Positions 21,561 through 22,659 of a stretch of DNA of 34,424 nucleotides are shown here, piece after piece. A program made the position numbers and the translations under genes. Origin of the DNA: Arcobacteraceae bacterium (GTDB lineage: Bacteria > Campylobacterota > Campylobacteria > Campylobacterales > Arcobacteraceae); contig JAIOSF010000001.1 of the NCBI GenBank assembly GCA_021107755.1, positions 1-34,424 on the forward strand, read 5' to 3'. The notes under the pieces were generated by a model. The model did not search any database. It saw nothing but the letters and a program-made list of their open reading frames with translations, and was not told the origin of the DNA. Numbering within the stretch: the first letter of the stretch is position 1; each line of letters opens with the position of its first letter.

Positions 21561-21629
21561 TATTTATCCTTATTTTTCTTTTTAATATACTAGCATAAAA
21601 AAAGTTATGTTACAATCAAAAAAATAATT

Positions 21630-21797
21630 AGCATAATTTTATATTCAGTTTTTTTTAAGATTAACCAAAAATTACGCGTGACTTGAAGATAAAGAACAGA
21701 TTATTAAGGTATTTTTATTCTGTAAGCAGATAAAAAGGACTTAACTACTAAAGCTATTTTCTTTAATCTTAAAAAAAACTGAATATAAAATTATGCT
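21630..21797. mobile_element. MITE-like element, 168 bp, with perfect 35-bp terminal inverted repeats
   Basis: Bases 21630-21664 (beginning AGCATAATTTTATATTCAG) are the exact reverse complement of 21763-21797. The 98-nt centre holds a second, imperfect hairpin (21704-21722 with 21727-21744, TTAAG and CTTAA at its outer ends). Taking the ends at GCATAATT (21631) and its complement (21796), both flanks read TTA (21628-21630 and 21797-21799), a possible 3-bp target duplication. There is no ORF inside. This is the form of a miniature inverted-repeat transposable element, but a large regulatory hairpin is not excluded. The right end supplies an ATG in frame with the next gene. Confidence 0.6.
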
Positions 21798-21822
21798 TAA
21801 ATTCATTTCGAAAGTAGCATAT

Positions 21823-22659
21823 ATGAGTAAAGAACATTTAAAAGAATTTATAGGACTTGGTATTGCTGGCAATTTTGCACACCATTTAGAACAAGCTGGA
21901 GAAGCTAGTGATTTTGTTAATATACAAGTGAATGATGAAAATGCTCCTAAGGGTATTTTTCCATTTTATCTGCCAAAAAGTGAAACTTTTTTAGGTACCT
22001 ATCCACTCTCAAGCCAAAATATCAAACACCCTAGAACTAAAGATGGAAATCTTCAAATGGAACCAGAAGTGGCACTTATTTGTGAAATAATTTATGAAAA
22101 CAATCAAGTCAAAGATATAATTCCAAATTTTTTTACAGCGTACAATGATTGTAGTATAAGAAAAGAGGGAGCTAAAAAGATTAGTGAAAAAAAGAACTGG
22201 GGAGAAGAGACAAAAGGGATATCATCTCAAATCATCCCTATAGATAAATTTGAAGAAGATGGGATAATGGAAAGTTACCATATCGCCTCTTTTTTAAAAA
22301 GAGATGGGATAGTGTATCCTTATGGTGAAGATAGTGCTGTAAAAACATATAATTATATTTATGGACAATTAAAAAACTGGATTGTAGAAAAACTTAATAC
22401 TCAAAAAGATGAGGGACCATTAGAGGATCTGCATAGTTATATTCAAAAATGTGATTATCCACAAGGGATGGTTATCAGTATTGGGGCTACAAGTTATACT
22501 GAATTTGGAGAGAATACATTTTTGGAAGTTAATGATGAGATATTTGTATATATTTATGATAGTAAAAAATATACTTTTAATGATATTTTAGCAAATGCTA
22601 AAACAGAAAATACAGATAAACTATCAAACTGCTCATTACTGCATCAAAAAATAATATAA
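21823..22659 (+). CDS. FAH-fold-like protein (DUF5718-type)
   Basis: 278 aa from ATG at 21823 (MSKEHLKEFIGLGIAGNF). The frame is also open from an ATG at 21793, but that codon lies in the terminal repeat of the inserted element. The sequence follows the course of fumarylacetoacetate-hydrolase folds: IGLGIAGNFAHHLEQ, then QMEPEVALICEI (acidic metal-site strand), FFTAYNDCSIRKEGAKKISEKK, and late GMVISIGATSYTEFG and FLEVNDEIFVYI. This agrees with a divergent family I know as DUF5718, of unknown substrate. The call is by pattern, not search. Its promoter must lie in or just beyond the inserted element. It ends adjacent to the stop of the kinase gene on the other strand. Confidence 0.68.
   Translation: MSKEHLKEFIGLGIAGNFAHHLEQAGEASDFVNIQVNDENAPKGIFPFYLPKSETFLGTYPLSSQNIKHPRTKDGNLQMEPEVALICEIIYENNQVKDIIPNFFTAYNDCSIRKEGAKKISEKKNWGEETKGISSQIIPIDKFEEDGIMESYHIASFLKRDGIVYPYGEDSAVKTYNYIYGQLKNWIVEKLNTQKDEGPLEDLHSYIQKCDYPQGMVISIGATSYTEFGENTFLEVNDEIFVYIYDSKKYTFNDILANAKTENTDKLSNCSLLHQKII

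Follow-up and report, generated by a model that had tools for sequence, protein, structure and literature searches.

Being the site on which the transposase acts, the ends of a MITE usually vary little from copy to copy. MITEAba12 of Acinetobacter is 113 bp long, carries 16-bp ends matching those of the resident insertion sequence ISAba12, folds at about -25 kcal/mol and occurs in highly conserved copies (PMC6382973). Like MITEAba12 (PMC6382973), the element described here is short and non-coding, ends in inverted repeats and duplicates 9 bp of its target, but it possesses arms of 35-41 bp, folds at about -57 kcal/mol and has outer ends specific to each copy, and no resident IS was found for it. 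Correia, ERIC, RUP and comparable bacterial MITEs are 100-250 bp long, intergenic, AT-rich or structured, and are transcribed into RNAs that fold as long stem-loops; those of the Correia type may bring in promoters and RNase III sites (PMC10969869). No sequence match to these MITEs was found and, unlike in them, the outermost arm bases of our element are among its most variable.

REPs and REPINs, of 20-40 bp, are mobilised by TnpA-REP, a Y1 transposase (PMC3116915, PMC8266576). They too are dispersed palindromes that fold on themselves, but the genome studied here is devoid of PF01797 and its element bears a 9-bp target duplication. To our knowledge, no target duplication is expected from single-strand Y1 transposition. 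The last related system is a process, quasipalindrome or template-switch correction (PMC7202029, PMC8604942, PMC8794818), which makes arms identical and leaves changes on both sides. We assign the element to a MITE-type family that is new, duplicates 9 bp of its target and has no known parent, the two arms of each copy evolving in concert.

Results and discussion

Structure of the element

The window, that is the whole stretch of 34,424 nucleotides of Arcobacteraceae DNA that was analysed, carries one copy of the element, flanked by a 70-aa minus-strand ORF (start 21560) and a plus-strand DUF5718 gene. An earlier note on this DNA had described exact reverse-complement arms of 35 nt and a position between divergent genes, and both descriptions are accurate; all 35 of the 35 arm pairs in the window copy are Watson-Crick (Table 1). 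RNA folding of positions 21600-21830 yields -59.2 kcal/mol, where shuffled sequences average -29.5 (z = -7.6, equalled by none of 200 shuffles), and the DNA fold of 21630-21797 has z = -9.4.

Table 1. Features of the window copy and its flanks (window coordinates)
Feature	Position	Strand	Basis
Whole element	21629..21798	+	Family end consensus TARC...GYTA (window copy TAGC...GCTT); 13 aligned copies, analysis of flanks
Left arm, long stem	21630..21664	+	Exact reverse complement of 21763-21797
Right arm, long stem	21763..21797	+	Exact reverse complement of 21630-21664
Core motif 1 (approximate limits)	21666..21702	+	Family consensus AAAAAATTACGCGTGACTTGAAGATAAATAGCCAG; alignment, ATTACGC invariant in 13 copies
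Variable loop including inner hairpin (fold without conservation)	21704..21744	+	Loop block 51% mean pairwise divergence; no covariation
Core motif 2 and inner right arm (approximate limits)	21747..21773	+	CTAAAGCTATTTTCTTTAATCTTA; 7-9% mean pairwise divergence, nearly invariant
Putative 9-bp target duplication, left copy (decayed, register +/-1)	21619..21628	+	Best alignment AAAATAATT / AAATTCATT, 7/9
Putative 9-bp target duplication, right copy (decayed, register +/-1)	21799..21808	+	Flank alignment with left copy, 7/9
Ten spurious codons of DUF5718 frame	21793..21822	+	ATG in right arm of element; Met of homologue L077 aligns with 21823

The inner hairpin, also pointed out in the note, is not a feature of the family: over 11 copies, only a TTAA/TTAA match is invariant and covariation is nil, for which reason we discarded it as a conserved helix.

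A dispersed family

The note had proposed a search of the complete genome and of relatives for the end sequence. In the genome of origin (2.62 Mb, 33 contigs), it brought to light 13 further copies, 12 full and one reduced to its arms, so that 13 full copies of 165-200 bp (the window copy included) and the arms-only copy are distributed over nine contigs. The same set is recovered by a covariance model for which 11 copies served as the input. Identity between copies is mostly 67-81%, the nearest pair (L037 and L038) reaching 92%. Coding capacity is absent, the longest stop-free stretches spanning 27-57 codons in frames that differ from copy to copy. All copies are intergenic, several of them no more than 10 bp from a stop codon. 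The neighbouring genes are divergent in 6 of the 14 cases, co-directional in 5 (with the element in both orientations) and convergent in 3, and such mixed contexts suggest no common effect on neighbours.

Outside this genome, the DNA search, covering 104 genomes of the same bacterial family, gave no significant copy in any of the remaining 103, and the covariance model, applied to 41 genomes, detected none in the 40 relatives. Relatives gave some weak matches (L027-L029, L117-L135), all of which were inspected; most also went through the covariance model, and none proved significant. The element has no match in Rfam, and a known RNA family was discarded on this ground; carriage by phage or plasmid was discarded likewise, no match having been found.

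The description of the element as MITE-like, given in the note, thus gains support from dispersed copies, empty sites, target duplications (the latter two are treated below) and the lack of coding capacity. We consider it probable, taking the explanation developed here as a whole, that the element belongs to an old non-autonomous MITE-type family which is restricted to one species in the searched genomes.

One pair of loci in relatives is worth recording. Genomes G061 and G065 have in common an intergenic hairpin at the same place (L123 and L125, approximately 1485-1553), 21 bp of which are identical to the inner arm. Its covariance-model score is not significant (E = 0.76 for L123), and it is perhaps a distant cousin of the element.

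Target site and transposase

Empty sites in relatives, another check named in the note, were found at two syntenic loci in sister species of the same genus. Flanks of L042, joined without the element, have an uninterrupted counterpart in G003:C46 (583 query bases, 79% identity), and those of L041 have one in G002:C90 (602 bases, 71%). Since these alignments are only 71-79% identical, the exact junction is unreadable.

Flanks of all 14 copies were then compared for direct repeats of different lengths, the register being set two bases beyond the conserved RC/GY. Words of 9 bp agree at 60.3% of positions, as against 34.1% +/- 4.8% for randomly paired flanks, a value as high being obtained in none of 2000 shuffles. 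Other lengths give no comparable peak, although length 4 reaches p = 0.002. The duplication is exact at two copies, GTTTATTTG (L038) and TACTTTATC (L046); with slides of one base allowed, 9 of the 14 match in at least 7 of 9 positions, and those at L040, L043 and L044 are past recognition. Judging from these flanks, the 9-bp repeat is a target-site duplication, now decayed at most copies. From its length we infer insertion by a DDE-type transposase with a 9-bp stagger. This stagger is common to several DDE families, namely IS1, IS4/IS50, IS903 and some of IS256. The 3-bp TTA duplication (21628-21630 and 21797-21799) that the note had proposed is peculiar to the window copy and gives way to the 9 bp displayed by the family.

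The same data bear on the idea that these are fixed regulatory hairpins, terminators or mRNA-stabilising structures, which never transposed. The exclusively intergenic location and the several copies within 10 bp of a stop codon would agree with it, but target duplications and empty sites contradict it, no terminator-like site is present, and several copies stand between divergent genes, where a terminator is unneeded. We regard this explanation as highly improbable.

Insertion by a DDE-type enzyme raises the matter of its source. The genome contains no member of DDE_3 (PF13358), Y1_Tnp (PF01797), Transposase_mut or DDE_Tnp_1, each of which does match some control genomes, and a genome-wide search with the arm sequence returned no locus beyond the copies. 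The element ends in TAGCACAATC-like sequence, the weak end consensus of the family being TARCNYAATC. With these four Pfam families and the arm search, the 33-contig assembly yielded no such transposase at another locus and no full-length IS bearing the same ends, the two sources raised in the note. An IS630-type MITE with a 2-bp TA target is ruled out by the 9-bp duplication together with the absence of DDE_3 (PF13358), Y1 or REP-type mobility by the absence of PF01797, and resident transposases of the IS256 and IS4/IS5 types are not present in the genome. Non-autonomous copies would thus have been spread by a DDE transposase acting in trans with a 9-bp stagger; its parent element may have been lost since, may reside in another lineage, or may belong outside the four transposase families searched.

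Concerted evolution of the arms

Comparison of the arms revealed that complementarity is kept within copies and sequence is not kept between them. Over the 35 outer pairs of 11 copies (385 cells), 373 cells are Watson-Crick, 5 are G-U and 7 are mismatched, and in 16 of the 35 pairs one or more copies have both partners altered. If the stem is taken as 42 pairs, 98.5% of cells are paired, and two-sided changes affect 17 pairs and 48 cells, the shuffle means being 8.1 and 13.5 (none of 500 shuffles was as high). This signal of covariation is gone once the partner is slid by one base. Arms diverge by about 21% between copies as against 3% (12/385) within a copy. Likewise, distances calculated from the left arm correlate with those from the right arm at 0.80 and with those from the core at 0.06. 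The arms of each copy thus evolve in concert: they stay complementary after insertion, with their outer halves drifting between copies. The ends do not behave as a conserved transposase site, their outer 14 bp being 43% different between copies.

The halves of a target duplication can serve as a clock for the arms, because at the moment of insertion the former are identical and the latter exactly complementary. In the fixed register, 40% of positions now disagree in the duplications, as against 3% in the arms (p = 1e-23); even when only duplications matching in at least 7 of 9 positions are retained, a restriction that biases toward similarity, 11 of 81 positions differ as against 12 of 385 in the arms (p = 0.0005). 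Since arm mismatch is far below duplication mismatch, perfect arms are evidently maintained and are not a sign of recent movement. Arms are perfect in L039, L040, L041, L044 and the copy in the window. The duplications of these copies match in 7, 3, 6, 5 and 7 of 9 positions, respectively, and the copies are about 25% diverged from one another, so that the reading in the note, by which perfect ends suggest recent movement, finds no support.

These values also weigh on the possibility that the family has recently been active, each transposition producing a fresh perfect copy and the differences between arms reflecting many diverged masters. Exact duplications at L038 and L046 and the 92% identity of L037 and L038 speak for it, but the perfect-armed copies have decayed duplications, and with identities mostly of 67-81% roughly one master per copy would be required. 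Recent activity is accordingly unlikely in our opinion. Perfect inverted ends, often taken as evidence of recent transposition, can be old, and the decayed 9-bp duplication provides a clock for each copy.

What keeps the arms paired

Among two-step compensatory changes in RNA genes, 78.5% were reported to involve G-U (PMC8794818). Given this share, finding 5 or fewer G-U among the 12 pairs left with a one-sided change has p = 0.006, a value obtained on a small sample with a rate taken from other RNA genes, and the share of 5/12 is near that of unfiltered transitions plus transversions. Selection on RNA pairing would leave many G-U pairs as tolerated intermediates, so that their low number counts against it and favours a process at the level of DNA. 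Template switching between the arms of inverted repeats is a known homogenising process (PMC8604942, PMC7202029). Upkeep of pairing by palindrome correction during replication thus appears more likely than selection on RNA, as far as sequence comparison can tell; selection for a DNA cruciform would produce the same pattern as arm correction.

The course of events was then probably as follows. After insertion, the target duplications decayed while the arms of each copy remained paired. Within the hairpin, one arm would serve the replication fork as template for the other (template switching or quasipalindrome correction), and most surviving changes would in consequence appear on both arms. Template switching has been described as a source of mutations; in the present case it would operate on transposon copies and preserve the pairing of their ends. 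A limited literature search retrieved no paper joining template switching with homogenised terminal inverted repeats. The 14 copies are natural replicates with which palindrome correction in DNA could be told apart from selection for RNA structure, and this difference is important wherever covariation is taken to prove that an RNA is functional.

Conservation of the core and possible host function

Arm correction does not explain all the conservation. The inner halves of the arms and motif 2 (CTAAAGCTATTTTCTTTAATCTTA) diverge by only 7-9%, as against 51% in the loop, and ATTACGC of motif 1 is invariant across the 13 copies. This exceeds what is expected of a dead neutral copy, and correction alone would be insufficient, which points to an additional constraint. 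The invariance may come either from constraint in place, i.e. use by the host, or from exchange of blocks between copies.

With core motifs nearly invariant, a function in the host has to be considered. The MITE might have been domesticated, either as a family of host small RNAs or as a structured DNA site bound by protein, with selection acting on the stem and the two motifs and leaving the arms free to change provided they stay paired. The low divergence of inner arms and motif 2 and the invariant ATTACGC, retained despite the divergent loop and decayed duplications, would be understandable on such terms, as would the very strong covariation in the stem. Divergent, co-directional (in both orientations) and convergent contexts reveal no shared role in cis, however, intermediates of the G-U type are few (5 as against 7 mismatches), and Rfam matches, covariation in the inner helix and, in the genomes searched, relatives outside the species are all lacking. 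Domestication is in our view possible but doubtful, and maintenance of an old MITE family by arm correction is the reading we prefer.

Single copies deviate from the common form. L049:3019-3079, the arms-only copy, has lost its entire core, and its target duplication is recognisable in 8 of 9 positions. L040:2996-3168 is located between two nitrogenase-type genes of the same direction (type judged by eye), 9 bp past a stop codon. Within the motif 2 region, the right inner arms of L047:3018-3217 and L048:3030-3220 contain 22 extra bases (TATAAATCAAGACT[G/T]CGTCGTG). These bear some likeness to motif 1 in reverse complement (p = 0.016), but it was too weak for us to accept the insert as a relic of a longer palindrome. 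In the rest of its sequence, L047 sides with the short copies L037 and L038, and this conflict suggests repeated deletion or exchange between copies.

Start of the DUF5718 gene

The right arm of the window copy contributes an ATG at 21793, which opens the DUF5718 frame ten codons early. The closest DUF5718 homologue (L077, an Arcobacter MAG, 69% identity, MSKKHLQEFIGFG...) begins at a Met aligned with position 21823 of the window, just after GGAG. The true start is therefore likely to be 21823, the ATG at 21793 being a false start supplied by the element, as the note had suspected. Other homologues of this gene (21823-22659) come mostly from Aeromonas and Pasteurellaceae, with about 41-53% identity, and their patchy spread suggests horizontal transfer.
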